Shown: one piece after another, positions 2,417-47,873 of the stretch | How the letters are laid out: each line of letters starts with the position of its first letter | Numbering within the stretch: the stretch's first letter is position 1 | Source: Desulfovibrio sp. | Lineage (GTDB): Bacteria > Desulfobacterota > Desulfovibrionia > Desulfovibrionales > Desulfovibrionaceae | Assembly (NCBI GenBank): GCA_016218665.1 | Contig: JACRDI010000008.1 | Coordinates: forward strand, 62,001-126,000 | DNA: 64,000 nucleotides | Direction of reading: 5' to 3' | The notes under the pieces: generated by a model | Databases searched by the model: none | Told to the model about the DNA's origin: nothing | What the model saw: only the letters and a program-made list of their open reading frames with translations | Made by a program: the position numbers and the translations under genes

Positions 2417-3979
2417 TCAGCGCTTTTTGCGCTGCTTCTTGTTCAACTTCTTCTTCTTGCGTTCGGCCAAAGTCTTCTTGGAAAGCTGCTTCTTGCCCTC
2501 GGCAGGCGCGGCGGGCATCTCCGGCATGCCGGGAATGCTGCCCATGCCGGGCATGCCCTGGGCCATGGTGTTCTGCATCATGGCGGGCGAGAGCTTGGGC
2601 TGGGGCTTGGTGCCCGGCGGGGTGTAGCCTGCGGGCATGCCGGGGATCTTGGGCATCTTCGGCATTTGCGGGGTTTTGCCCCCGCCGCCCAGCATCTGCT
2701 GCATCATCTTGTTCATCTGCTCGAAATTCTTCAGCAGCGCGTTGACCTCGGCCACGGGCTTGCCGCAGCCCTTGGCGATGCGCTCGCGCCGGCTGGCGCT
2801 GATGATGGAGGGCTCGCGGCGCTCCTTCTTGGTCATGGAGTTGATGATGGCCTCGGCCTTGTCGATCTCCTTCTCCGGCACCTGCATGTCGCCCAGCTTC
2901 TTCATCATGCCGCCCATGCCGGGGATGAGCTTCAGGATGCTTTCGAGCGAGCCGATCTTGCGCATGCGGCGCATCTGGGTGAGGAAGTCCTCCAGGTCGA
3001 ACTTGGCCTGCTGCATCTTGGCGGCCAGCTTCTCGGCCTCGGCCGCCTCCATGGTGTCCTGGGCCTTCTCGATGAGCGTCATGACGTCGCCCATGCCCAG
3101 GATGCGCTGGGCCGCGCGGTCCGGGTGGAAAGGCTCCAGGTCGGAAAGCTTTTCGCCCATGCCCACGAACTTGAGCGGCTTGCCCGTGACGCTCTTGATG
3201 GACAGGGCCGCGCCGCCGCGCGCGTCGCCGTCCATCTTGGTGAGCACCACGCCGGTGATGCCCAGGCGCTTGTCGAAGGCCTCGGCCACGGTGACGGCGT
3301 CCTGGCCGGTCATGGCGTCGGCCACGAAGAGGATCTCGCCGGGCGTGCAGCGCTCCTTGATGGCCGAGAGCTCCTGCATGAGCGGCTCGTCCACGTGCAG
3401 GCGGCCCGCGGTGTCGAGCAGGATGGCGTCGCACCCGGCCTCGGCCGCCTTTTTCAGGGCGTCGGCGCAGATGTCCACGGGGTTCATGTCCGTGGTGCTG
3501 GGGTAGGCCGGCACGCCGAGCTGCTTGGCCAGCACGTGCAGCTGGTCGATGGCCGCGGGACGGTACACGTCGGCCGGGACCAGGTAGGGCTTCATCTTGT
3601 GCTTGGAGCGCAGCAGGTTGGCCAGCTTGCTGGCCGTGGTGGTCTTGCCCGAGCCCTGCAGGCCCACCATCATGATGGTCACGGGCTTGCGCTTCAGGTC
3701 CAGGCCGGTGTTGGCCCCGCCCAGAAGCTCCACCAGCTCGTCGTGGACGATCTTGACCACCTGCTGGCCGGGGGTGAGGCTCTTGAGCACGTCCGCGCCC
3801 AGGGCCTTCTCCTTCACCCGGTCGACGAAATCCTTGACGACCTTGAAGTTGACGTCGGCTTCCAGCAGCGCCATGCGCACTTCGCGCAGGCCGTCCTGGA
3901 TGTTTTTCTCATCCAGGCGGGCCTGTCCGCGCAGGTTGCGGAAGGCTTCGGAAAGGCGGTCTGTGAGGCTGTCGAACAC
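2417..3979 (-). CDS. ffh: signal recognition particle GTPase Ffh (SRP54)
   Basis: The GTPase and signal-peptide-binding subunit of SRP, which delivers nascent membrane proteins to FtsY. The N domain (residues 1-90) is followed by the G domain with P-loop GLQGSGKTTTASKLA near residue 105, DTAGRLHVDE near 190 and TKMDGDARGG near 246, and then a Met-rich M domain with the GGMMKKLG and signal-binding segments. The tail is Lys-rich (KKTLAERKKKKLNKKQRKK). I start the gene at GTG 3979, giving VFDSLTDRL, because GGAG lies six bases upstream and the family starts MFDSL. A TTG two codons earlier (3985) is also open. Length is about 520 residues, slightly longer than the usual 450-500 owing to the Gly/Pro/Met-rich and Lys-rich C-terminus. 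First gene of the operon. Confidence 0.97.
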   Translation of the reverse strand: MFDSLTDRLSEAFRNLRGQARLDEKNIQDGLREVRMALLEADVNFKVVKDFVDRVKEKALGADVLKSLTPGQQVVKIVHDELVELLGGANTGLDLKRKPVTIMMVGLQGSGKTTTASKLANLLRSKHKMKPYLVPADVYRPAAIDQLHVLAKQLGVPAYPSTTDMNPVDICADALKKAAEAGCDAILLDTAGRLHVDEPLMQELSAIKERCTPGEILFVADAMTGQDAVTVAEAFDKRLGITGVVLTKMDGDARGGAALSIKSVTGKPLKFVGMGEKLSDLEPFHPDRAAQRILGMGDVMTLIEKAQDTMEAAEAEKLAAKMQQAKFDLEDFLTQMRRMRKIGSLESILKLIPGMGGMMKKLGDMQVPEKEIDKAEAIINSMTKKERREPSIISASRRERIAKGCGKPVAEVNALLKNFEQMNKMMQQMLGGGGKTPQMPKMPKIPGMPAGYTPPGTKPQPKLSPAMMQNTMAQGMPGMGSIPGMPEMPAAPAEGKKQLSKKTLAERKKKKLNKKQRKKR

Positions 3980-35850: not shown

Positions 35851-38637
35851 ATGCGCTACCTGGGCATCTTCCTCGTCTGCCTCGCCTCCATCGCGTTCGA
35901 GATCTTCCTCGTGCGCCACTTCGCCATCACCAACTGGAGCGAATACGGCTACTGGGTCATCTCCATGGCCATGGCCGGCTACTCCGTCAGCGGCGTGGTG
36001 CTCTGCCTGTTCGGCAAGGCCTTCGAGCGCAGGCAGGGGGCGCTCTTCTACGCCCTGCCCACGGCCATGCTGCTTCTGTGCGCCCTGGGCTACGCGGCCC
36101 TGGGGCTCATCCCCTTCAATCCCCTGGAACTGCAGAACGAGGTGCTCTTCGCCGGGCAGTTGGTGAACATCGGCAAGTACTACCTGGCCCTGTTCCCGTT
36201 CTTCTTCGCCTCCGGCCTCTATGTGGGCCTGTCCTTCCTGGCCAGGCAGGAGGACATCCCCAAGATCTACATGGCCGACCTGGTGGGCGCGGGCCTGGGG
36301 GCGGCCGCGCTTTTGGCCTGCCTGGCCCTGGTGCCGCCGTTTCTGGCCCCGCTGCTGCTGCTGCCGCCGCTGCTGCTCGCCGCCCTCACCAGCCTGCCCG
36401 GAGGGAAGCCCGCGGCAAAGGCCGGCTTCGGCGCGCTGGCCCTGGCCGCCTGCGCCCTGGCCGCCTTCGTCGTGGCCAGGCACAACAACGCCGCCTTCAG
36501 CCAGTACAAACCGGTCTCCGTGGCCATGAACGTGGAGGACAACCGCGTGGTGGCCGAGGTGAAGAGCCCGCGCGGCTACTACATGCTGCTGGAGAACTAC
36601 ATCGAGCGGCACGACCCGGACCTTTCCAACAACTACGAGCTCCTGGGCGCGGGCGGCCCGCCCCCGGCGCTGGGCCTGTACCGCGACGGCGAACGCCTGG
36701 CCGCGCTGCCGCGCGAGCTCGCCTACGACACCGGCTACATCAAGGCCAGCCTGGACTGCCTGCCCTACCTGCTGCGCAAGCCCGAGCGCGTGCTGCTGGC
36801 CGGCGGGCGCGGCGGCTTCCGCCTGCGCGAGGCCCTGGAACTGGGCGCGCGCAAGGTGGACACGGTGGAGAGCGACCCGGTGCTGCATGCGCTGCTGCTC
36901 ACCCACGAGCCCAGCGCCCCGCCCAAGGGCTGGTCCGTGCGGCTGCCCCTTTCCGACATGCCTCCCGGCGAGGAGGGAGACGCGGGCGGCGCCCTCCTGC
37001 CGGAGCAGGGCGGCGACAACGCCAGCACCCCGGCCGAGGCCGCCGTACAGCCCGCCCCGGCGCACCACGAGGCCAACGGGACCGCGCACGGGTCCGTCAA
37101 AGCCCCAGGCAGGGCCCCAGGCAAGGCCCCCGCCAAGCAGGCGCCCCAAAAGGGCGCGCCCCAGGCCAAGAAACCCGCAGCCCCGGCCGCCAAACTGCAT
37201 CCGGCCCAGCGTCCGGCCCAGCACCCGGCCGTTCCCGCCGCCGCCTTCGCCGCCGGGCACGACGCGCCCACGGGCCACGCCTCGGCCCCGCGCCTGGGCT
37301 CGCCCCGGGTGCTGGCCGGACGCGCCGCAAAGCCTTACAGCCTCATCGACATCTCCCCGGAGTTCCTGGACCAGGGCCAGGCCAACAAGTACGTGCTCAC
37401 GGCCGAGGGCATCGCCCGGCTCATGCGCGCCCTGGACGCCGACGGCCTGCTCTCGCTGCCCATGGGCATCGGCGAACTGCCGGTGTACGCGCTGAAGGCC
37501 GCCACCACCGTGCGCGCCGGACTGCTCCTGGCCGGAATCCAGGACCCCTCGCGCAACATCATCGTCCTGCGCAGCGCCTTCACCGTGCGCATCCTGGCCT
37601 CGCGCAAGCCCTTCAGCGCGGCGGACATCACGGCCGCGCGCGCCTTCGCCGCGGAGCGCAGCTTCGACACGCCCTACTTCCCCGGCATCGACACGCAAAA
37701 GGTTGAGGTCTTCAACGATCTGCCGCCCGTGTCCTTCGAGAGCGTCACCTCCGACACCCTCGCGGGGGACGAGAGCGGCGCCGCGCGCGACGCCCTCATG
37801 GACGATCTGGTGGCCTACCTGCGCGACAACAGGACCGACTCCTCGGCCTTCCGCTTCTTCAACCTCGCGCCCAGCACCCAGGACCGCCCCTTCTTCCACG
37901 AGATCCTGCGCCTGGAGCGCATCCCCGAGGTGCTGGCGCGCATCGACCTGCTGCCCCGCCAGGAGATCGGCTATCTGGTGAACATCGCCGTGCTCGGCCA
38001 GGCCGCGGCCTTCGCCCTGGTGGTCTTCCTGCTGCCCCTGGCCAAACGCAGGGGACTGGGCGGCATCAGCACCGGGCGCATCCTCTCCGGCTTCGGCTAC
38101 TTCGTCTGCCTGGGCCTGGGCTTCCTGTTCATAGAGATCGTGCTCATCGAACGCCTGACATTCTTCCTGAACGACCCGGCCCAGGCCTTCGCCCTGGTGC
38201 TCTCGGCCATGCTCATCGCCTCCGGCCTGGGCAGCGCGTTCTCCTCGCGCTTCGTGCCCCGGCCACGCGCGGGCATCCGCCTGGCCTGCGGCTGCGCCGC
38301 CACCCTGGCCGCCGCCCTGGGCCTGCTCCTGCCCCGCCTGCTCGACCTCGCCCTGGCCTGGCCCGACCCGGCCAAGGCCGCCCTGGCCATCGCCATCGCC
38401 GCGCCCCTGGGCTTCTTCATGGGCATGCCCTTCCCGCTGGCCCTGTCCACCTACCGCGGCGCCACCAGCCCCTTCATCCCCTGGGCCTGGAGCGTCAACG
38501 GAGCCCTCTCCGTGGTGGCCACCCCGCTGGCCAACATCCTCGCGGTCAGCTTCGGCTACACCACCGTCTTCGCCGCGTCCCTGGGCCTGTACGCCCTGGC
38601 CGCGCTCCTCGCCCCGGACAGGGCGGCGCAGCAGTAG
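35851..38637 (+). CDS. spermidine-synthase-like membrane protein
   Basis: A 928-residue polytopic protein. The N-terminal 220 residues have about seven membrane segments; a cytosolic Rossmann-like domain with spermidine-synthase features spans about 230-690; six more segments end the protein. The SAM-binding-like strand is RVLLAGGRGGFRLREALELGA with acidic VESDP. Between this and the next strand lies a low-complexity insert (about residues 370-500, rich in Ala, Pro, Lys, with 12-base repeats in DNA such as CGTCCGGCCCAG). The motif where spermidine synthases have the catalytic Asp reads YSLIDISPEFL, so aminopropyl transfer is doubtful. Function unknown; membrane transport or lipid modification are possible. 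The nearest upstream signal is none obvious. Confidence 0.85.
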   Translation: MRYLGIFLVCLASIAFEIFLVRHFAITNWSEYGYWVISMAMAGYSVSGVVLCLFGKAFERRQGALFYALPTAMLLLCALGYAALGLIPFNPLELQNEVLFAGQLVNIGKYYLALFPFFFASGLYVGLSFLARQEDIPKIYMADLVGAGLGAAALLACLALVPPFLAPLLLLPPLLLAALTSLPGGKPAAKAGFGALALAACALAAFVVARHNNAAFSQYKPVSVAMNVEDNRVVAEVKSPRGYYMLLENYIERHDPDLSNNYELLGAGGPPPALGLYRDGERLAALPRELAYDTGYIKASLDCLPYLLRKPERVLLAGGRGGFRLREALELGARKVDTVESDPVLHALLLTHEPSAPPKGWSVRLPLSDMPPGEEGDAGGALLPEQGGDNASTPAEAAVQPAPAHHEANGTAHGSVKAPGRAPGKAPAKQAPQKGAPQAKKPAAPAAKLHPAQRPAQHPAVPAAAFAAGHDAPTGHASAPRLGSPRVLAGRAAKPYSLIDISPEFLDQGQANKYVLTAEGIARLMRALDADGLLSLPMGIGELPVYALKAATTVRAGLLLAGIQDPSRNIIVLRSAFTVRILASRKPFSAADITAARAFAAERSFDTPYFPGIDTQKVEVFNDLPPVSFESVTSDTLAGDESGAARDALMDDLVAYLRDNRTDSSAFRFFNLAPSTQDRPFFHEILRLERIPEVLARIDLLPRQEIGYLVNIAVLGQAAAFALVVFLLPLAKRRGLGGISTGRILSGFGYFVCLGLGFLFIEIVLIERLTFFLNDPAQAFALVLSAMLIASGLGSAFSSRFVPRPRAGIRLACGCAATLAAALGLLLPRLLDLALAWPDPAKAALAIAIAAPLGFFMGMPFPLALSTYRGATSPFIPWAWSVNGALSVVATPLANILAVSFGYTTVFAASLGLYALAALLAPDRAAQQ

Positions 38638-39093: not shown

Positions 39094-40494
39094 CTATTCT
39101 CCGTCTTTCCCGCCCGCGCCGCCCAAGCGTTTCAGTATCTTCTGCAGGCTCACGCGCTCTATGCCGCTGATGCGCGCGGCCTCGGAGATGTTCCCGCCGG
39201 ACATGTCGAGCACCTGTTCCACGTAGCGCTTGGTGAAGCTGTCCAGCACGTGTGCCTTGGCCTGCTTGTAGGGGGCAAGGGGCTGGGCCTGGGGGGAGCA
39301 GGTGGCGTGTCCGGGCAGGCCGCCCTCGGCCTGGCGCAGGTGCGAGAGATCCACCTGCGGGTTGGGGCAGAACACGGCCAGGCGGCGGATGAAGTTCTGC
39401 AACTCGCGCACGTTGCCGGGCCAGGGCCGCTCCGTAAGGCAGGCCACGGTCTCCGGGCCGAGCACCTTGGGCGGCAGGCGCATTTCCGCGCAGGTCTGGG
39501 CCAGGAAGTGCGCGGCGAGCAGGGGGATGTCCTCCTTGCGGTCGCGCAGGGGGGGCGTGGTGATGGTGAGCACATTAAGGCGGTAGAAGAGGTCCTGGCG
39601 GAAGCTGCCGTCGGCGATGCGGGCCTCCAGATCCTGGTTGGTGGTGGCCAGGATGCGCACGTTGACCTTGACCGTGTCGCTTGAGCCCACGGGGCGGATC
39701 TCGTGCTCCTGCAGCACGCGCAGCAGCTTGGTCTGCACGGGCATGGGGATGTCGCCGATCTCGTCCAGCAGGATGCTGCCCCCGCTGGCGGCCACGAAGA
39801 GCCCGCGCCGGGTCTTGTCCGCTCCGGTGAAGGCTCCCTTCACGTGGCCGAAGAGTTCCGATTCAAGGAGATGCTCCGGTATGGCCGGGCAGTTGACGGT
39901 GATGAAGGGCCTGCCGGCGCGGGAGCTGAGGCGATGGATGCTCGATGCAACCAATTCCTTGCCCGTGCCCGATTCGCCCCGCACCAGCACGGTGTAGTCC
40001 GAGGCGGCCACCGCGGCCATGGACTCCTTGAGCCGGCGCATGGCCGCGCCCTGGCCCACCAGGGTGCGCTCCAGCTCGGAGCGCCGCGCCAGCTCGCGCA
40101 GGGTGCGGTTTTCGCCCAGCAGGCGGTCGCGCTCCAGGCCCTTGGCGATGGCGCGGAAGAGCTCGGCCCGTTCTATGGGCTTGGTGAGGAAGTCGTAGGC
40201 CCCGGCCTTCAGGGCGGCCACGGCGGTTTCCACGCTGCCGTGCCCGGTGAGCATGATGACCGTGAGGCTGGGATCCAGCTCCACGGCCTGGCGCAGCAGC
40301 TCCTGGCCGTCCATGCCGGGCATGCGCAGGTCGGTGAGCATGAGGCCCACCCCGCCCGCGCCTATGCGTTCCAGGGCCTCGGCCCCGCTGTGCACGGTTT
40401 CGGTTTGCGCGTCGGGGAAGCCCGCGCCGATGAGCCGGGCCAGGCCCTGGGCGAAGTCGCTTTCGTCGTCCACAAGCAGGATGCGCTGGGGCAT
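39094..40494 (-). CDS. sigma-54-dependent response regulator controlling the YeiH-type module
   Basis: A 466-residue NtrC-family activator. The receiver has Asp in LMLTDLRMPGMDG and Lys in LTKPIERAE. The AAA+ domain has GESGTGKELVA, the sigma-54 loop VKGAFTGADK and ILLDEIGDIP. The DNA-binding helix-turn-helix is GGNISEAARISGIERVSLQKIL. It lies 8 bases downstream of its sensor kinase gene, divergent from the transporter operon whose promoter carries a -24/-12 sigma-54 site and an upstream 20-base palindrome. The simplest reading is that the phosphorylated regulator binds the palindrome and activates that promoter. Confidence 0.95.
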   Translation of the reverse strand: MPQRILLVDDESDFAQGLARLIGAGFPDAQTETVHSGAEALERIGAGGVGLMLTDLRMPGMDGQELLRQAVELDPSLTVIMLTGHGSVETAVAALKAGAYDFLTKPIERAELFRAIAKGLERDRLLGENRTLRELARRSELERTLVGQGAAMRRLKESMAAVAASDYTVLVRGESGTGKELVASSIHRLSSRAGRPFITVNCPAIPEHLLESELFGHVKGAFTGADKTRRGLFVAASGGSILLDEIGDIPMPVQTKLLRVLQEHEIRPVGSSDTVKVNVRILATTNQDLEARIADGSFRQDLFYRLNVLTITTPPLRDRKEDIPLLAAHFLAQTCAEMRLPPKVLGPETVACLTERPWPGNVRELQNFIRRLAVFCPNPQVDLSHLRQAEGGLPGHATCSPQAQPLAPYKQAKAHVLDSFTKRYVEQVLDMSGGNISEAARISGIERVSLQKILKRLGGAGGKDGE

Positions 40495-40502
40495 GGCCTC
40501 TC

Positions 40503-42932
40503 CTATGCGTTCCGGGGAGCCGGCGAGGGCTCCTGCGCGGGCAGCAGCACGCGGAACAGCGCGCCGCCGCCGGGCTTGTTCTCCACCTCGATTGAGCCGC
40601 CAAGGTCGCGCACGATGCCGTAGACCACGGCCAGGCCCAGGCCGGTGCCCTTGCCCACGTCCTTGGTGGTGAAGAAGGGATCGAACACGCGGTCCAGGTG
40701 CTCCGGCGCGATGCCGGGGCCGTTGTCCGCAACGGTGAGCTCCACCATGTCCGGCTGGGACGGGCTGGCCCGCAGCGACACGGCGACGGCCGCGCCCTCC
40801 CCGGCCTTGGCGGCCACCGCGTCCAGGGCGTTCATGGCCAGGTTGGTGAGGATGTGCTCCAGGGCCTCGCTGCCTGCGGCCACAAGGGGCAGGTCCGGCG
40901 CGGCCTCCAGGGAGAGGGCCGCCGCGGCGTTCTTGCCGCGCGGGCGCAGCACCTCCAGGGTGCTGGCGGCCACGGCGGCCAGGTCGCTGGGGCCGGGCTT
41001 GGCGGGCCTGGGCCGGGCGAAGTCCAGCAGGTCGCGCACCACGCGCCGGGCCTGGTCCGTGTGGCGCATGATGACCTCGATGTCGGCCTGGGCCTGCGGC
41101 TCCTGCTGGGAGGCCTGGAGCAGCTCCGCGTAGCAGCGGATGACGCCCAGGGGGTTGTTGATCTCATGCGCGAGTCCCGCGGCCAGCTGGCCCACGGCCA
41201 CGATGCGCTCGTTGCGGCGCATTTGGCCTTCCATGCGGCGTTCGGCCGTCACCTCCCGCAGGGAGGCCACGTGCCGCAGGCCGCCGCCCGCCTGGGGGAT
41301 GGGATAGAGGCTGGCCTCGAAGATGCGCGGCCCGCCGGGCAGGGGCAGCTCGAACTCGCCCTGGCCGGTGCCGCGGGTGGCCAGCTCAAGCCTCTCGCGC
41401 AGGCCGTCGAAGCCGTGTCCGCCGGGCACCGCGCCCTCTGCGCCCAGCTGGGCGGCCAGCTCGCGGGCGCGGCTGTTGGCCAAAAGCACCGCGCCGCCGG
41501 TATCCAGCAGCAGCAGCGGGTCGTCGATGCCCTCGAAGATGGACGAGAGCAGGTCGTTCTGGCGCAGCAGGCCGTCCAGGGCGTCCAGGTTCTCCATGGC
41601 GATTCCCAGCTGCTGCCCGATGGCCCGGGCCAGGTCCGCCAGACGGGCGCTCTTCTCCTGGCGGGTGTCCCAGTGCAGGCACAACAGGCCCCGGCTGGTG
41701 CCGGAGGTCTGCACCGGGATGTACCAGGCGCGGGGGGTCAGGCGCGGCTCGCCCGCGGCCACCAGGTCGTGCCAGTCGTCGGGCAGGTCCGGCGCGGCGC
41801 CGGGCTCCGGCCAGGAGGCGTAGTCCGACGCGCCGAGCACACAGACGTAACCGGCCCGGCTGGCGCCGAAGCGACGCGCCGTAAGGGCCAGGGCCGCCGC
41901 GAGCATCTGCTGCTTGTTCTGGCTTTCGTTCAGGCTGTTCAGCAGGGCCACGAAGAGCGCCACGTCCGCCCGCCGGTCCTCGGCCAGGCGGGTGATGGCC
42001 GAGGTGCGCGCGGCCACGGTGTCCTCCAGGGTGGCGGCGTAGTCGCTCAGGTCCTGCCGGGCCTGCCGCAGGTGCTGGGCAAAGGCCTCGAAGCCGTGCA
42101 GGATGTCCTCGATCTCGTCGTCGGCCGCGGGCAGGGTCTGGGCCTCCTTGGCCTCCTCCGGGAACAGGCGGCGCATGACCCCCGTGACCCGGCGCAGGCT
42201 TTGCACCACCAGCCTGTGGAAGAAGCCCTGGATGACCAGAAAGAGCACCAGGATGCCCACGGCGAAGAGCGCCGCGAAGGAGAAGGTGGCCTCGCGGATG
42301 CCGCCCACGTCGCGCTGGACCTTGAGCCGCACGAGGTCGATGCCGGCCAGGTCGCCCACGGAGCGGCCGAAGCCGCGCGTGTCGCCGTAGCGGGCGATGA
42401 GCTCGCGCGGGGCCTCGGCCGGGTCGCCGTGGCAGCGCAGGCAGGCTTCCTCGAAGCGCTGGGGCCGGGCGGTGATGAACTGCTGCTCCCCGTCGATCTT
42501 GTCGAACTGCTCCACGCGCACGAGCTTGGGCTCGGCCTGGAAGCGGGCGATGAAGGCGCGCTCGCGCTCGTCGGCCTCGTAGTCCGGGTTGCGCGCGCCA
42601 ATGCCCACCCGGCGGTAGGTGAAGGCCTCCCTGGTGAGGGTCTGGTCGCTCATCACCGCGCGGGTGATGTAGGAGGTGCTCATGGCCTCCAGCACGAACT
42701 GGTCGCCGGGCAGCAGGCGGTACATGGCGGGCCTGAGGGTGGCGCGCACGTAGGCCTGCACGGCCTCCACCTGGGAGAGGATGAGGGCGGCCTTCTCGCG
42801 CGCCTCGCCCTCCATCAGGCGCTCCAGGTGCATGTTCAGCGCCAGGGCGAAGAAGCCCACCATGAGGGCCATGAGCAGGGCCTGGCCGGCCAGGAACTTG
42901 GCCTGCAGCGTGTGCGGCATCATGCGGCGCAT
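40503..42932 (-). CDS. sensor histidine kinase with heme-c-type DUF3365 sensor domain
   Basis: An 809-residue kinase. A first membrane segment (about 12-32) and a second (about 220-245) enclose a Tll0287-like DUF3365 domain: [13 protein letters not shown] carries a CXXCH heme-c attachment motif (CLRCH), followed by [19 protein letters not shown], a family hallmark. So the sensor may read redox state or a small ligand in the periplasm. Next come HAMP-like coil, a GAF-like region (about 330-460), a PAS-like part, HisKA ([16 protein letters not shown]) and HATPase ([37 protein letters not shown]). ATG 42932 has GGGAGG upstream. It is paired with the sigma-54 regulator 8 bases downstream. Confidence 0.94.
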
Positions 42933-43022
42933 GGCGGGGCCTCCCGTGTTTTCCCCTCCTGTACGCGGGGCGCGGGCGCATGGCAACAACGGGCTGCACC
43001 CCTGTAGCCGCACGGCAGCCCA

Positions 43023-43042
43023 CTGCTAACACGAGTTAGCAG
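43023..43042. promoter_or_regulatory. palindromic upstream activating site for the sigma-54 regulator
   Basis: CTGCTAAC (43023-43030) and GTTAGCAG (43035-43042) form a perfect inverted repeat with a four-base centre. It lies about 100 bases before the predicted transcription start, where enhancer-binding proteins bind. That it is bound by the neighbouring regulator is inference. Confidence 0.7.
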
Positions 43043-43105
43043 GAAGGCCGGGGCCCAGGCACACAAAAACCTGTGAAAATAGCCGCTTGAAGCGCCACTT
43101 TCGGG

Positions 43106-43121
43106 TGGCACCATCCTTGCT
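43106..43121 (+). promoter_or_regulatory. sigma-54 (-24/-12) promoter of the YeiH-type operon
   Basis: TGGCACCATCCTTGCT matches the consensus TGGCAC-N5-TTGCT, with the invariant GG and GC ten bases apart. Transcription would begin near 43133. The operon start ATG is at 43201. Confidence 0.85.
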
Positions 43122-43200
43122 CATCCAGTGCAACCAAACGGGAAACGGCGGCCGGACTTCCGGGCCGCTTCGACCTGCCACCATGTCAACGGAGGAGACA

Positions 43201-44310
43201 ATGGAAGAAAAACAAGGTGTTGCCAAAGTCGTCAGCATCATCCCCGGACTCGCGGTGATGGTGCTCACCCTCTACGTGCTGCGCATCTTCGTGGAGCCCT
43301 GGATGACCGACGCGGTCGTGTTCGGCCAGAAGGGCTGGTTCGTGAAGGTGCTGCACCTGAACTACATCCTGCTGGCCATCATCACCGGCATGCTGTACCG
43401 CAACGTGCTCTTTGGCGGCAAAATCCCCGAGTGGGCCGAGGAAGGCTTCCGCACCACGCGCCTGTTCATCAAGTCGGGCGTCATCATGCTGGGCAGCCTG
43501 TACACCATCCAGAGCCTGGCCAAGGTCGGCGGCATCGCCATCGGCCTCATCATGACCTTCGTCTTCGGCACCATCCTTTTCGTCATGTGGTTCGGCAAGC
43601 GCGTGGGCATGGAGCGCTCCATGATCGGCGTCATGGGCGCGGCCGCCGGCGTGTGCGGCGTCTCCGCCTGCATCGCCACCAGCCCGGCCGTGCGCGCCAA
43701 GCCCGCCGACGTCGCCCTGGCCATCGCCACGGTGCTCGGCTTCGGCATCATGACCATGTTCATCAGCCCCTTCATCGGCCACGCCCTGCAGCTCACCGAC
43801 TACCAGTTCGGCGCCTGGGTGGGCACCGGCATCCTGAACTCCGGCCAGGTGCTGGCCACCTGCCTGGCGTACAACCCCACCATCGCCCCGGGCACCGCCG
43901 TGGCCTACGGCGAGATCTGGAACGTGGTGCGCGTCATCTCCATCCCCTTCGTGGTGTTCTTCATCACCATGTGGTACTGGCGCGCCGAGGCCGAGGCCGA
44001 GTGCATCACCCTCGGCGGCATCATCAAGGACAAGTTCCCCGTCTTCGTCATCGGCTTCTTCGGCATGACCGCCCTGTCCTCGCTCGGCATGCTCGGCGCG
44101 GAGGGCTCCTCCACGCTGAAGCTCATGCGCGAGGTCATGAGCTGGATCTTCGGCCTGGGCCTCATCGGCCAGGGCGCGTACATCGACATCCGCGAGATCA
44201 AGGCCGCGGGCGGCAAGCCCCTGCAGGTGGGCCTGGCCGCGGGCGTGCTCAAGTACGTCATCGCCCTCATCGTCATCATGCTCTTCGTTTCCAAGGAAGC
44301 CAGCTTCTAG
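43201..44310 (+). CDS. YeiH-family membrane transporter (putative anion/sulfate exporter)
   Basis: A 369-residue polytopic membrane protein with about ten hydrophobic segments (for example IIPGLAVMVLTLYVLRIFV and LLAIITGMLYRNVLFGG). The centre has MGAAAGVCGVSACIATSPAVRAKPADVALAIATVLGFG, closely recalling the conserved CGxSA/AtePaVkA core of YeiH proteins, followed by YQFGAWVGTGILNSGQVLA. YeiH-type proteins are annotated as sulfate exporters without direct proof. The ATG at 43201 follows GGAGG at five bases. It heads an operon with the barrel-sandwich protein and a universal stress protein, downstream of a sigma-54 promoter. The transported anion is unknown. Confidence 0.83.
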   Translation: MEEKQGVAKVVSIIPGLAVMVLTLYVLRIFVEPWMTDAVVFGQKGWFVKVLHLNYILLAIITGMLYRNVLFGGKIPEWAEEGFRTTRLFIKSGVIMLGSLYTIQSLAKVGGIAIGLIMTFVFGTILFVMWFGKRVGMERSMIGVMGAAAGVCGVSACIATSPAVRAKPADVALAIATVLGFGIMTMFISPFIGHALQLTDYQFGAWVGTGILNSGQVLATCLAYNPTIAPGTAVAYGEIWNVVRVISIPFVVFFITMWYWRAEAEAECITLGGIIKDKFPVFVIGFFGMTALSSLGMLGAEGSSTLKLMREVMSWIFGLGLIGQGAYIDIREIKAAGGKPLQVGLAAGVLKYVIALIVIMLFVSKEASF

Positions 44311-44320
44311 GAGGTCCGTC

Positions 44321-44728
44321 ATGGCTCAATCCGATCCGAAAAAATGCGGCAAGATGACCGTGTTCCGGTCTGACCGGCACGAAGACGTCGCCGCCATGGT
44401 CTTCGTCACCCTCGTGGTGGTCACCGTGCTCGTGTACATGGCCTACATCGTGCCCACCATCACCCTGAAGGCGCCGAGCGACGGCAAGATCGTCTCCGTG
44501 GCCGCCGTGGCCGACACCGAGGTGAAAAAGGGCGACCTGCTCTACACCATCGAGGTGAAGGAGAAGAAGTACAAGGACGGCAAGCTCGAAGAAAAGCTCG
44601 TCGTGAAGGAGATCCACGCCAAGACCAACGGCAAGGTGCTCTCCGTCTCCGCCAAGGAAGGCGACGAGGTGAAGAAGGACAAGCAGGCCCTCCTCGTGCT
44701 CGACCACGAAAAGGGCACCCTGCCGTAA
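44321..44728 (+). CDS. membrane-anchored barrel-sandwich (biotinyl/lipoyl-like) protein
   Basis: A 135-residue protein with one transmembrane segment at about 24-46 (VAAMVFVTLVVVTVLVYMAYI). The rest reads as a lipoyl-like hammerhead: ITLKAPSDGKIVSVAAVADTEVKKGDLL and KTNGKVLSVSAKEGDEVKKDKQALL are two barrel-sandwich halves, connected by a Lys/Glu-rich hairpin (EVKEKKYKDGKLEEKLVVKEI). No MKM-type biotin-acceptor lysine is present, so biotinylation is not expected. The domain likely faces the periplasm. It follows the transporter by 10 bases and overlaps the USP gene (TAATG). It resembles adaptor-like domains of efflux systems; a role as accessory subunit of the transporter is inference. Confidence 0.78.
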   Translation: MAQSDPKKCGKMTVFRSDRHEDVAAMVFVTLVVVTVLVYMAYIVPTITLKAPSDGKIVSVAAVADTEVKKGDLLYTIEVKEKKYKDGKLEEKLVVKEIHAKTNGKVLSVSAKEGDEVKKDKQALLVLDHEKGTLP

Positions 44729-45165
44729 TGAGGATCCTCCTCGCCCTCGACGACTCCACCCGGTCCATGGACGAGGCCCTGCGCCTCGCCCATGACCGGG
44801 GCGCGGAACTCTCCGCGCTCTTCGTCCTCGACACCGGGTGGAGCGTCTACACCGGCCACGACTTCCTCCTGGGAAGCCACGCGCGCGGCACCTTCCTGGA
44901 CTACGCCCGCGACGACGAACTGGCCCAGGAAAAGGCCACCGCGGCCGAACTCCAGAACCGCGCCCAGGCAGCCGGCGTGGACTGCCAGCTCAAGACCGCC
45001 GCAGCCGGCCGCGTGCCCGAGGCCATCCTGGCCGAGCTCAAGACCGGCGGCTACGACCTGCTCGTCATGAGCCACCCCTTCCGGCGCGGGCTCGAAGTCA
45101 TGCGCGACGCCGCCACCCAGGTGCTGAAGGGCGCGGACTGCGACGTGCTGCTGGTAAAGAGATAA
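44728..45165 (+). CDS. universal stress protein (UspA family)
   Basis: A 145-residue cytosolic alpha/beta protein. The N-terminal MRILLALDDSTRSMDEALRLA gives the Asp of the ATP site in the UspA fold, and the C-terminal DLLVMSHPFRRGLEV and TQVLKGADCDVLLVK match the family's phosphate-binding part. The usual G-2X-G-9X-G-S/T motif is degenerate (MSHPFRRG...), so ATP binding is unsure. Its ATG overlaps the stop of the barrel-sandwich gene, so it is co-translated. In this operon it may modulate the transporter or be a stress partner. A dispersed GC-rich hairpin element lies just downstream. Confidence 0.88.
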   Translation: MRILLALDDSTRSMDEALRLAHDRGAELSALFVLDTGWSVYTGHDFLLGSHARGTFLDYARDDELAQEKATAAELQNRAQAAGVDCQLKTAAAGRVPEAILAELKTGGYDLLVMSHPFRRGLEVMRDAATQVLKGADCDVLLVKR

Positions 45166-45170
45166 GAAGA

Positions 45171-45303
45171 GACGCAGGGGCTCCGCCCTTTGACGCTGGC
45201 AGGGGCTCCGCCCCTGCACCCCGCCAGAGGGCGCAAGGCCCTCTGGACTCCCTTTGGCGAGGGCCGCCGCCCCGGCGCAAGGCCGCCAGGACGGCGACCC
45301 TCG
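45171..45303. repeat. dispersed intergenic hairpin element, copy B
   Basis: CCAGAGGGC (45224-45232) and GCCCTCTGG (45238-45246) with a five-base loop are followed by ACTCCCTTTG and a 7-base outer stem GCGAGGG/CCCTCGC (45257-45263, 45297-45303). CAGGGGCTCCGCCC appears twice directly before (about 45175 and 45200). It lies right after the UspA stop and may act as a terminator. Confidence 0.8.
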
Positions 45304-45959
45304 CGAAGGGCTGGCAGGACCGGACACCGTCGCCCTCCGCTCCGACCGATCCCCTGCCGAGCAAATCCCGCCTGGCTTCGGCCCCTTCGACTCCATAAAA
45401 ATGAGCTCCACGGGAAGGGCAACGCCAGTGCGCCCGCCGTGGCGCTTGCGCCTGCTGCGCTTCCGTTACGCGGGATTCATGGGGGGGCTGGCGAAAGGCG
45501 CGGGGGGCGGCTCATCGGTGCAAAACGCGCCACAGGGACCGGGAGCTGGAACCGCAGCGTCCACATGCGCCTCTACAAAAAGTGAAGAGGCCGCGAAAAC
45601 GCCCGTGAAGCGGATGCCACCCGCATCCAGAGTTAAACAATTATTTCGGTAAGATGTTTTGAGAGGACCGAGACCGCCTGCCAACGCGGCGAGTCTTCCG
45701 CCAGCCCCCTTGCACCTGTTTTCCTGGGAAATGAGTCCTGCAATTGTGGAGAGGCTCCCGCTTCGGGTTTTGCGCTCTTTTTAAGTCGTTATATGTCGGC
45801 GCGTTAGCGGGAAGCCCGCCCGGCATGGTTCTTGTTTACAGGGTTCCAGCCGCGCACGCCGGTCACTGGAGCACTCAGGGCGCGCGAGCGTCCCGGCGCA
45901 GAGATTTTCGCATGTGCATCCGGGGTGTGGCGGCATCCGGTGCTCCTGGGAGGTGGACG
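45304..45959. other. intergenic region, no gene identified
   Basis: The 650 bases have several open frames but none with a ribosome binding site or credible codon pattern. The stretch at about 45625-45700 is AT-rich (TTAAACAATTATTTCGG) and another AT-rich patch lies at 45770-45800; either could hold a promoter for the Hpt-like gene. I saw no stable terminator or RNA. Confidence 0.5.
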
Positions 45960-46307
45960 ATGAGCGACCCTGTCCCCATGCCGACCGAGTGTGGCGGGCT
46001 GGATATCCCGGAAGTGCTGGGGCGGCTTCCGGGCGGGGTGGCGGAGCTTCTGCAGACCGCTGCCGGGCAGCGTCTGGCCGAGCTTGACCGTGCCGTGGCC
46101 ACGGGGCAGGCTTTGGAGGCCATGGAGGCCGCCCAGTCCCTCGCGAGCCTGGTGGGGGTGCTGCCCATACCGGCCCTCGGCGTCCATATCCGGAACGTGT
46201 ACTCCGCCGCCTCCAAGGGGGACCTGGCCGCCATGGCCCAGGCCCACGAGCATCTGGCCGCGGTGCTGCGGTGGGTGCTGGGCGCGCTCGGCAAGGGGAA
46301 GGCCTGA
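45960..46307 (+). CDS. Hpt-like protein lacking the phosphorylatable histidine
   Basis: A 115-residue all-helical protein with the pattern of histidine phosphotransfer domains: QRLAELDRAVATGQALEAMEAAQSLASLVGVLPIPALGVHIR and AASKGDLAAMAQAHEHLAAVL. In working Hpt domains the second helix has AHxLKGxxxxxG; here the place reads AAQSLASLVGVLPIPALG, with Gln for His and Ala for Lys. So phosphate transfer is not expected. Such pseudo-Hpt proteins can inhibit or tether kinases or receivers. GGGAGG lies ahead of the ATG at 45960. It stands 93 bases before the sigma-54 regulator and may act on the same pathway. Confidence 0.7.
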   Translation: MSDPVPMPTECGGLDIPEVLGRLPGGVAELLQTAAGQRLAELDRAVATGQALEAMEAAQSLASLVGVLPIPALGVHIRNVYSAASKGDLAAMAQAHEHLAAVLRWVLGALGKGKA

Positions 46308-46400: not shown

Positions 46401-47873
46401 GTGACCAGAGTATGCGTCATAGACGATGATGAATTCTTCGCCCGGCTTCTGGCGACCCTTGTCGCCGGGGAGGACGTGGAGGCCGTCATTGCCGGAGACC
46501 TGGCCGAGGCGACGCGCTGTCTTGAGGACGCCGACTTCGACGTGGTGTTCCTCGATGTCAGGCTGCCCGACGGCAACGGACTGGACCTCATTCCCCGCAT
46601 CAGGGAGCTGCCCGGCTCCCCGGAAGTTATCATCATGACCGGGCTGGGCGACCCGGACGGCGCCGAGCTGGCCATCCGCAACGGCGCCTGGGACTACATC
46701 CAGAAGACCGGCGCCCCGGAGGGCCTGCAGCTGTCCTTCAAGCGCGCGCTGGAGTTCCGCCGCAGCAAGCAGAGCGCGCAGCCCGTGGAGCGGCGCGGCA
46801 TAGTGGGCGAAAGCCCCCTGCTGATGGAAGCGCTGCGCCAGATGTCCACCGCCGCGCGCAGCAGCGCCAATGTCCTCATCATGGGGGAGACCGGCACGGG
46901 GAAGGAGGTCTTCGCCCGGGCCGTGCACGCAAACAGCGCCAGGCGCGGCAAGAGTTTCGTGGTCGTGGACTGCGCGTCGCTGCACGAGGCGCTGGTCGGC
47001 AGCGACCTCTTCGGCCACCGCAAGGGCGCCTTCACCGGCGCCATGGTCGACAAGGACGGCTTTCTCCAGCGCGCCGACGGCGGCACCCTCTTCCTTGATG
47101 AGATAAGCGAGCTGACCCTGGAGGTGCAGAAGAGCTTCCTGCGCCTGCTGGAGTCGCGCACCATCCGCCCCCTGGGCGACACGCGCGAGGTGCGCCTGGA
47201 CTTCCGGCTGGTGTGCGCCAGCAACCGCGACCTCGCCGAGATGGTGGAGGCCGGAACCTTCCGCGAGGATCTGTTCTACCGCATCCGCGCCTCCGTGCTG
47301 CGCCTGCCCTCCCTACGCGAACTGGGCGAGGACGTCCTGGGCATCGCCCAGCACCACCTGGACCGCATCTGCAACGGCAGCAGGCTCGGCCACAAGGCCC
47401 TGTCCTCGGACCTGCGCGCCTTCTTCCTGGAGTATCCCTGGCCCGGCAACGTGCGCGAGCTCATCCACATTCTGGAGGCCATGGTGGCCTGCGCCCCGGA
47501 ACAGGAGATGCTGCTGCCCGCGCACCTTCCCCAGGAGCTGCGCATCCAGATGCTGCGCTCCCGCGTGGGGCGCGCCGCGACAAAGGGACAGGCCCCGCGC
47601 GAGCACACGCCCGAACCCCTGGTGAGCTGGGGCGAATACAAGAAGCGCGAGCAGGACCGCATCGAGCAGGCCTACGTGGACGGGCTTATCGAGGCCAGCG
47701 GCGGCGACATCCGCCTGGCCATTCAGATTTCGCAGATCAGCCCCTCGCGGCTGTACGGTCTGTTGAGCAAGCACGGCCGTTCGCTGGGCCAGCGCGCGGG
47801 CGGCCAGGCCCGTGCCGTCCGCCCGGAGGGGGCGGCCCCCAGGGAAACGGCGGCAGCGGACGGAGAGCAGTGA
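46401..47873 (+). CDS. sigma-54-dependent response regulator upstream of the osmotic stress genes
   Basis: A 490-residue NtrC-type activator beginning with GTG. The receiver has CVIDDDEFFARLL and the phosphoacceptor Asp in VVFLDVRLPDGNG. AAA+ motifs are GETGTGKEVFA, RKGAFTGAMVD and TLFLDEISELT; the arginine-finger region REDLFYRIRASVLRLP is intact. The helix-turn-helix is GGDIRLAIQISQISPSRLYGLLSK, more diverged than Fis. The C-terminal 40 residues are Ala/Gly/Arg-rich and look disordered. It pairs with the sensor kinase that follows after 214 bases. A candidate -24/-12 promoter before mscS is its likely target. Confidence 0.94.
   Translation: MTRVCVIDDDEFFARLLATLVAGEDVEAVIAGDLAEATRCLEDADFDVVFLDVRLPDGNGLDLIPRIRELPGSPEVIIMTGLGDPDGAELAIRNGAWDYIQKTGAPEGLQLSFKRALEFRRSKQSAQPVERRGIVGESPLLMEALRQMSTAARSSANVLIMGETGTGKEVFARAVHANSARRGKSFVVVDCASLHEALVGSDLFGHRKGAFTGAMVDKDGFLQRADGGTLFLDEISELTLEVQKSFLRLLESRTIRPLGDTREVRLDFRLVCASNRDLAEMVEAGTFREDLFYRIRASVLRLPSLRELGEDVLGIAQHHLDRICNGSRLGHKALSSDLRAFFLEYPWPGNVRELIHILEAMVACAPEQEMLLPAHLPQELRIQMLRSRVGRAATKGQAPREHTPEPLVSWGEYKKREQDRIEQAYVDGLIEASGGDIRLAIQISQISPSRLYGLLSKHGRSLGQRAGGQARAVRPEGAAPRETAAADGEQ

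Follow-up and report, generated by a model that had tools for sequence, protein, structure and literature searches.

Five genes fill positions 39094-45165 of the window, the 64,000-nucleotide stretch of a Desulfovibrio sp. contig analyzed here (Table 1): a sensor histidine kinase and a response regulator on the minus strand, divergent from a transporter, a small protein and a universal stress protein (Usp) on the plus strand. On balance these genes probably form a circuit in which sensing of nitric oxide (NO) or of a redox change through heme c leads to sigma-54-dependent expression of an operon for an oxyanion (perhaps sulfite) transporter. The original prediction from the DNA alone, that a sensor with a heme-c motif governs a transporter operon (here PF03601) through sigma-54, is well supported by conservation and by the phasing of the control elements; its further statement that these parts are not combined in any described system does not stand, as the circuit is, by gene order, sizes and families, a member of the kind already described in Desulfovibrio vulgaris as DVU0540:DVU0539 and DVU0542:DVU0545 (PMC3333781, PMC4641369, PMC10102598; the literature on D. 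vulgaris, on heme-Cache sensors and on Salmonella is cited from the available portions of the papers). What is new here is the assignment of the sensor to the heme-c Cache family, the operators, and the family-wide pairing of the sensor with PF03601. Among the papers listed by a search of open-licence literature none was recognized as joining the heme sensor to this operon and the family-wide pairing was not seen, and no mention of a heme-c sensor domain in the DVU0540 kinase was found in the available text of the same three papers.

The sensor region of the kinase matches PF11845 in Pfam with an E-value of 1.4e-35 (123.3 bits; cut-off 24.1), and the predicted CLRCH heme-c motif lies within this DUF3365-like domain; HisKA and HATPase_c both exceed their Pfam cut-offs, and a PAS_4 match of 20.7 bits falls below its own (23.1). 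CXXCH occurs in 99% of the Tll0287/DUF3365 family, which has been reclassified as a heme-c Cache domain (preprint PMC12889525), and by its sequence the kinase sensor belongs to this family. The motif is kept in 43 of 43 kinases scoring above 300 bits, a count from which weaker or broken kinases (e.g. those of loci L057 and L102) were dropped and in which L008 and L009 appear to be one locus, and in 17 of 17 additional kinases above 500 bits in a separate set; it was not visible in the 103-bit kinase of L116, nor in the kinase of L106, which is cut by the contig end. Its cysteines are the sole cysteines of the sensor region in all 43 kinases, whose alignment also keeps Met84 (43/43) and Met70 (40/43). 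There is little doubt that the sensor domain would carry heme c. A family member that is fused to a signalling module and has no axial cysteine binds NO tightly, and a stand-alone member does not (PMC12889525); the kinase has PF11845, CXXCH, the signalling-module fusion and the absence of an axial cysteine in common with such Tll0287/sCache_heme sensors. Because this one signalling-fused homologue binds NO, NO is taken as the leading signal, an assignment made tentatively and by analogy. In L057 (4006-7146) the kinase gene is seemingly split into several pieces, possibly through a sequencing error, and the reading frames of transporter, small protein and Usp are open despite the split.

The regulator gene lies, as predicted, 8 bases downstream of the kinase gene, and its product has receiver, Sigma54_activat and HTH_8 domains (Pfam) together with a GAFTGA motif (pattern search); judged by these domains it is a sigma-54 enhancer-binding protein of the NtrC type. 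The regulators of L004 and L005 gave no match to the GAFTGA-type pattern.

The transporter start codon, an ATG at 43201, leaves the predicted divergent gap of 268 bases (42933-43200). The proximal operator in this gap, CTGCTAAC-ACGA-GTTAGCAG, had been called a perfect 20-base palindrome; it is instead an inverted repeat of two 8-base arms flanking a non-palindromic ACGA. Searched as TGCYAACNNNNGTTRGCA at up to 2 mismatches it gives one match in the window, with 0 mismatches (0.43 expected at that looseness), and in the 2.85 Mb genome one 0-mismatch site, no 1-mismatch site and eight 2-mismatch sites, the reversed control pattern giving 5. From the single exact operator, the regulator may serve one operon in this genome, unlike DVU0539, which has several targets in D. 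vulgaris. The predicted -24/-12 element, TGGCACCATCCTTGCT, is present exactly; the pattern TGGCACNNNNNTTGCW at up to 1 mismatch gives one match in the window, an exact one, with 2.36 expected at that looseness, so that the promoter by itself is weak evidence and the case rests on conservation and on operator phasing. A scan of 42900-45800 for sigma-70 sites found none. When seven upstream regions from the window's genus are aligned, blocks stand out most clearly at the 5' end of the kinase gene, at two operators, at the promoter and at the ribosome binding site; in the distal operator GGCAAC and TGCA are kept in 7 of 7, and the proximal operator is degraded in L047. The distal operator of the window, which the original prediction did not include, has 4 mismatches to the operator consensus (TGCYAAC-N4-GTTRGCA) and, being only half-conserved there, is called probable. 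Operators also stand immediately upstream of the kinase gene in L112 (2703-2720, 0 mismatch) and L111 (2588-2605, 1 mismatch), where the kinase-regulator pairs have no PF03601 neighbour; their position suggests autoregulation.

Poor conservation of the palindrome or of the -24/-12 element had been named beforehand as what would speak against the circuit. Conservation was quantified as a joint site, an operator (≤2 mismatches) followed 55-115 bp on by a promoter (≤1 mismatch), in the 700 bases upstream of 50 transporters: 34 with a small partner (window included), 15 of a second subtype, and that of L102. The joint site was found in 32 of the 50 loci (23/34 with the small partner, 9/16 without) and in 1 of 1678 control tiles drawn from other parts of the same loci. 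Offsets from operator to promoter are 70 (3 loci), 79-83 (25) and 102-104 (4), and so differ by roughly one or two turns of the helix. On this criterion the outcome favours the circuit. Among the 34 loci, the joint site is present in 23 of the 25 where a family kinase/regulator adjoins (L047 and L066 being the misses), in none of the 3 whose regulator has just 49-50% identity (L004, L005, L008), and in none of the 6 where the fetched stretch has no such kinase/regulator or only matches of ≤38% identity, one of these, L010, starting only 767 bases upstream. The operons of L004, L005 and L008, whose kinases are more distant as well, lack the operator; L004 has a different inverted repeat, GGCAAC-act-GTTGCC, at 3477-3491, 234 bases upstream of its transporter.

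The first operon gene encodes a protein that matches PF03601 at 167.2 bits (cut-off 24.5); the predicted YeiH-like character holds at the level of this family, and because the NCBIfam YeiH model TIGR00698 is missed (101.7 vs 232.6 bits), the transporter is not filed as YeiH proper. No relative of it was found in the PDB by phmmer at 0.01. Close transporters (E ≤ 1e-80) occur in 4 of 395 genomes of a phylum-wide sample, the window's own genome being one of the 4, so the close form is narrow, at a threshold that misses distant forms. The second gene product has one hydrophobic segment, identified by eye, then two Biotin_lipoyl_2 half-motifs; it matches PF13533 in two stretches (44.5 bits; cut-off 29.8) and falls below the cut-offs of HlyD_3 (19.9 vs 22.2 bits) and HlyD_D23 (20.2 vs 30). 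With the third gene product identified as Usp by Pfam, the single-pass barrel-sandwich protein and the UspA protein of the prediction are both present. In an alignment of small proteins from 23 of the 34 loci, window included, TVF-x-x-DRHED ahead of the hydrophobic segment and a C-terminal G-x-LP are invariant (23/23), a pattern that suggests interaction with a partner, for which the transporter is the simplest candidate. The structures modelled with AlphaFold2 for the transporter (mean predicted local distance difference test score 37.7, 9 sequences) and the small protein (53.2, 8 sequences) were unusable.

Relatives of the transporter comprised 9 loci from named metagenome-assembled genomes (MAGs) and, from a family sample with matches at 1e-20 in 53 of 199 genomes, the closest loci and a selection of weaker ones. 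In 34 loci the small partner and a Usp come directly after the transporter in gene order, and the five-gene neighbourhood, whose conservation the original prediction had proposed to check, is complete in 26 of these 34 fetched stretches, the window being counted in both and the L057 kinase, among the 26, being in pieces; in two of the other eight, L047 and L056, the contig ends within the kinase. L007, from a MAG titled Humidesulfovibrio, has the same five genes. With up to 5 candidates scored per genome, regulator matches at 1e-130 were found at no fewer than 125 places in 104 of 288 Desulfovibrionaceae genomes, and PF03601 at 171 places in 101 of the same 104 genomes. At 107 of these 125 regulator places a PF03601 gene lies within 6 kb (rough chance estimate, 0.6%), upstream and divergent in 54, upstream and co-directional in 50, and downstream in 3; of the 18 without a close PF03601 gene, 15 have none on the same contig.

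Grouped by length and score, the transporters fall into type A (369 amino acids, with the small partner), type B (~546-590 amino acids, with an insert) and two divergent groups, and 13 of 13 submitted non-A transporters exceed the PF03601 cut-off in Pfam. On a regulator tree of 60 rows, a quick tree with some long branches, the transporter labels including 'no transporter' (which may in part mean a contig end) need 12 changes, compared with a minimum of 4 and a shuffled mean of 31.1; 7 changes fall among the four transporter types alone. L105, from the same genus, combines a close regulator with a divergent transporter and keeps a pair of operator-like sites (with 2 and 3 mismatches) at the 43-bp spacing, the second of them 82 bases from the identical 16-base promoter; in 7 of 18 regions an operator with ≤2 mismatches is followed 78-125 bases on by a promoter with ≤1 mismatch. 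Because operators and promoter are kept in these cases, the control region tends, with exceptions, to persist through exchanges of the transporter.

The type B transporter of L073 (6497-8251) carries additional N-terminal sequence and, where the window protein has a short loop, an insert of ~110 amino acids; in L073 and L088-L101 this type adjoins the same kinase-regulator pair, and no small barrel-sandwich partner was found beside it. The idea that the L073 insert (gap at query residues 297-301) is itself a barrel-sandwich domain was dropped, as no resemblance was seen by eye, the insert having had no profile search. Small open reading frames (ORFs) of ~100-145 amino acids near the divergent subtype (L105:11264-11704, L108:11088-11384, L115:6725-7054, L120:6620-6964) may encode its own partner; Pfam gave nothing at 0.01 for the ORFs of L105, L108 and L120. 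In L121 (3820-11297) and L113 (6881-8470), both of genus g10, the pair adjoins a phytase-like gene (PF13449) and not a transporter, and a gene of L121 with a sub-cut-off GAF match is preceded by an operator (2 mismatches) and a -24/-12 site separated by 103 bases.

In the mechanism proposed for the window, a periplasmic Cache-type domain with covalent heme c would sense a small heme ligand, most likely NO, or a redox change, upon which the kinase, from its domains, would alter phosphorylation of the NtrC-type regulator. The regulator would bind two inverted-repeat operators, spaced by 43 bp and lying ~100 and 143 bp ahead of the start expected near 43133, and remodel sigma-54 polymerase at the -24/-12 promoter, for which conservation and phasing are the support here; that it controls this operon through sigma-54 is very probable. 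The operon would yield the PF03601 transporter, the single-helix barrel-sandwich partner, presumably a subunit of the transporter, and the Usp protein, and the transporter would most likely move sulfite or a similar oxyanion outward. A possible physiological fit is that NO or nitrite blocks dissimilatory sulfite reductase, so that sulfite would build up when the sensor fires. Anion export by the transporter is plausible, and a sulfite-type oxyanion is put forward tentatively as its substrate. A wider proposal, in which the heme-c sensor and sigma-54 cassette is a standard input across Desulfovibrionaceae for several PF03601 subtypes exchanged at a fixed regulatory site whose operators and promoter are retained, the output is a periplasmic, NO-triggered relief valve for oxyanions (sulfite), and the barrel-sandwich protein is an obligate accessory subunit, of a new kind, for one subtype, is doubtful as a whole.

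Several points weigh against this mechanism. The joint site is absent in 18 of the 50 loci; the 50 come from related species, and some of them also supplied the operator consensus. The locus is known from sequence alone, in a MAG that is 84% complete, and its likeness to the D. vulgaris circuit was drawn from published descriptions of the genes, a comparison that did not extend to sequences or to the published operator motif. NO binding was measured in one signalling homologue, the P. azotoformans protein, which is the only signalling member tested for NO in the available text of the preprint (PMC12889525). The transporter misses the YeiH cut-off, so a sulfite role may not carry over. The terms 'sulfate exporter' and 'universal stress' are absent from the main text of a D. 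desulfuricans NO/nitrite transcriptome paper (PMC5701242). In D. vulgaris under molybdate, the transporter and small protein are detrimental, as are the other DVU0542:DVU0545 operon genes besides the first Usp, and the kinase and the first Usp are needed; the DVU0539 regulator has no phenotype in lactate-sulfate medium, and the authors infer that the kinase opposes the regulator, a misfit with a simple picture in which the kinase activates (PMC10102598). DVU0539 is, moreover, tied to lactate genes (PMC3333781).

The sensor could report redox state or another heme ligand (sulfide, sulfite or carbon monoxide) in place of NO, the operon then being a feedback to sulfur intermediates. Sulfate reducers live with sulfide and sulfite, and the conserved Met84 and Met70 could serve as sixth ligands; both points favour this alternative. 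Stand-alone heme-Cache members also look redox-related, but the sole measured signalling-fused homologue binds NO tightly and an axial cysteine is equally absent here (PMC12889525), and the alternative is held as tentatively as NO itself. The lactate connection would become central if the operon served lactate/pyruvate metabolism, the transporter moving an organic anion and the circuit adjusting the flow of carbon, a role already proposed for DVU0539/DVU0946: among the further targets of DVU0539 in D. vulgaris are the DVU3025-3033 lactate operon and a lactate permease (PMC3333781, PMC4641369). This is, however, rather improbable, given that DVU0539 lowered the background activity of pDVU3025 (PMC3333781) and that the one 0-mismatch and absent 1-mismatch operator leave no lactate target at that stringency in the 84%-complete genome, a check that covered 0- and 1-mismatch operators and not the eight 2-mismatch sites.

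Molybdate or other toxic oxyanions would be an unlikely main substrate: in a transposon study DVU0539:DVU0545 is one of two clusters singled out from the strongest responses to molybdate, but loss of the transporter was beneficial under molybdate, the opposite of what an exporter would give, so that an importer or a lowered internal sulfate is possible (PMC10102598). Finally, palindrome and -24/-12 match could be products of chance and the operon constitutive, the promoter pattern alone being expected ~2.4 times per window at one mismatch; position, spacing and pairing are conserved across genera, by which this explanation is already disfavoured and can be given hardly any weight. Heme-c sensing of NO or redox, coupled through sigma-54 to an oxyanion transporter operon, remains the preferred account. 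Its value is that separate published lines are joined into a testable hypothesis on signal and substrate, together with a family-wide sensor-transporter pairing: the link to a heme-c Cache family with measured NO binding opens both to a direct test in a model sulfate reducer, and with the conserved operators the regulon becomes easier to read throughout the Desulfovibrionaceae.

Table 1. Genes and control elements of the divergent module, in window positions.
Feature	Position	Strand	Basis
NtrC-type response regulator (receiver, AAA+ with GAFTGA, Fis-type helix-turn-helix)	39094-40494	-	Pfam and motif
Sensor histidine kinase (Tll0287/sCache_heme sensor, HisKA, HATPase_c; weak PAS match)	40503-42932	-	Pfam
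Tll0287-like (PF11845) sensor domain, kinase residues 40-202	42327-42815	-	Pfam
CLRCH heme-c attachment motif, kinase residues 164-168	42429-42443	-	Motif in translation
Probable distal operator TGGCAACAACGGGCTGCA	42981-42998	+	Alignment; 43 bp upstream of proximal operator
Proximal operator, 8+4+8 inverted repeat	43023-43042	+	Sequence and conservation
-24/-12 promoter; GG 43107-43108, GC 43119-43120	43106-43121	+	Exact match and conservation
PF03601 (PSE/YeiH-related) transporter, 369 amino acids	43201-44310	+	Pfam
Small barrel-sandwich protein, one hydrophobic segment, 135 amino acids	44321-44728	+	Pfam and by eye
Usp, one-base overlap with preceding stop codon	44728-45165	+	Pfam

Around the module, a second NtrC-type response regulator is encoded shortly downstream on the plus strand (46401-47873), preceded by a 187-amino-acid ORF (45744-46307), and a 928-amino-acid ORF with many hydrophobic stretches by eye lies upstream (35851-38637); neither ORF has a Pfam match at 0.01. 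Neither the Rfam scan (gathering threshold) nor the tRNA scan found anything in the window. In 42900-45800 a single terminator-like site turned up, on the minus strand within the Usp gene, which is below the mean of 2.4 for shuffled sequence.

The closest known system is that of D. vulgaris, in which the kinase/NtrC-type regulator pair DVU0540:DVU0539 is divergent from the sigma-54-dependent operon DVU0542:DVU0545, encoding a PSE transporter, a 133-amino-acid single-helix protein and two Usp proteins (PMC3333781, PMC4641369, PMC10102598). The two systems have in common the divergent kinase-regulator operon, the order of transporter, small protein (133 amino acids there, 135 here) and Usp, and a GAFTGA regulator; D. 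vulgaris differs by an extra Usp as first gene. Since such an upstream Usp is variable among relatives, it is not taken as defining: an upstream Usp-like ORF is present in 9 of 11 inspected loci (L042, L044, L052, L059, L060, L064, L066, L077, L008; confirmed by Pfam in L042, L052 and L077). DVU0539 and DVU0946, its paralogue, have a binding site in common, as seen by DAP-chip (DNA-affinity-purified chip) and electrophoretic mobility shift assay, both activate pDVU0542 in E. coli, and their sites are reported to be conserved in environmental Desulfovibrio (PMC3333781); both are listed among sigma-54 regulators with transport and lactate targets in a paper that reports no data, in its available text, on substrates of TSUP and PSE transporters in Desulfovibrio (PMC4641369), and the conditions activating DVU0539 are stated elsewhere to be unknown (PMC6456213). 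The DVU0943-DVU0946 system, whose regulator has the same binding site and targets as DVU0539 (PMC3333781), is reminiscent in layout of the co-directional arrangement at 50 of the 107 co-located places; it differs in that the regulator lies inside its own target operon and the kinase is reported not to be paralogous to DVU0540.

More distant comparisons concern single parts. The small protein has two barrel-sandwich half-motifs after a single hydrophobic segment in common with HlyD/CusB adaptors and differs from them in its length of 135 amino acids, its short linker between the half-motifs and the missed HlyD_3 and HlyD_D23 cut-offs. In Salmonella, yeiH, which is called poorly characterized, confers sulfite resistance, and YeiE-YeiH likewise has a regulator gene divergent from a PF03601-type transporter gene, with a stress output (PMC12880088). 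YeiE differs in being a LysR-type regulator that binds sulfite, with no two-component system (PMC12880088), and YeiH in belonging to the model whose cut-off the window transporter misses.

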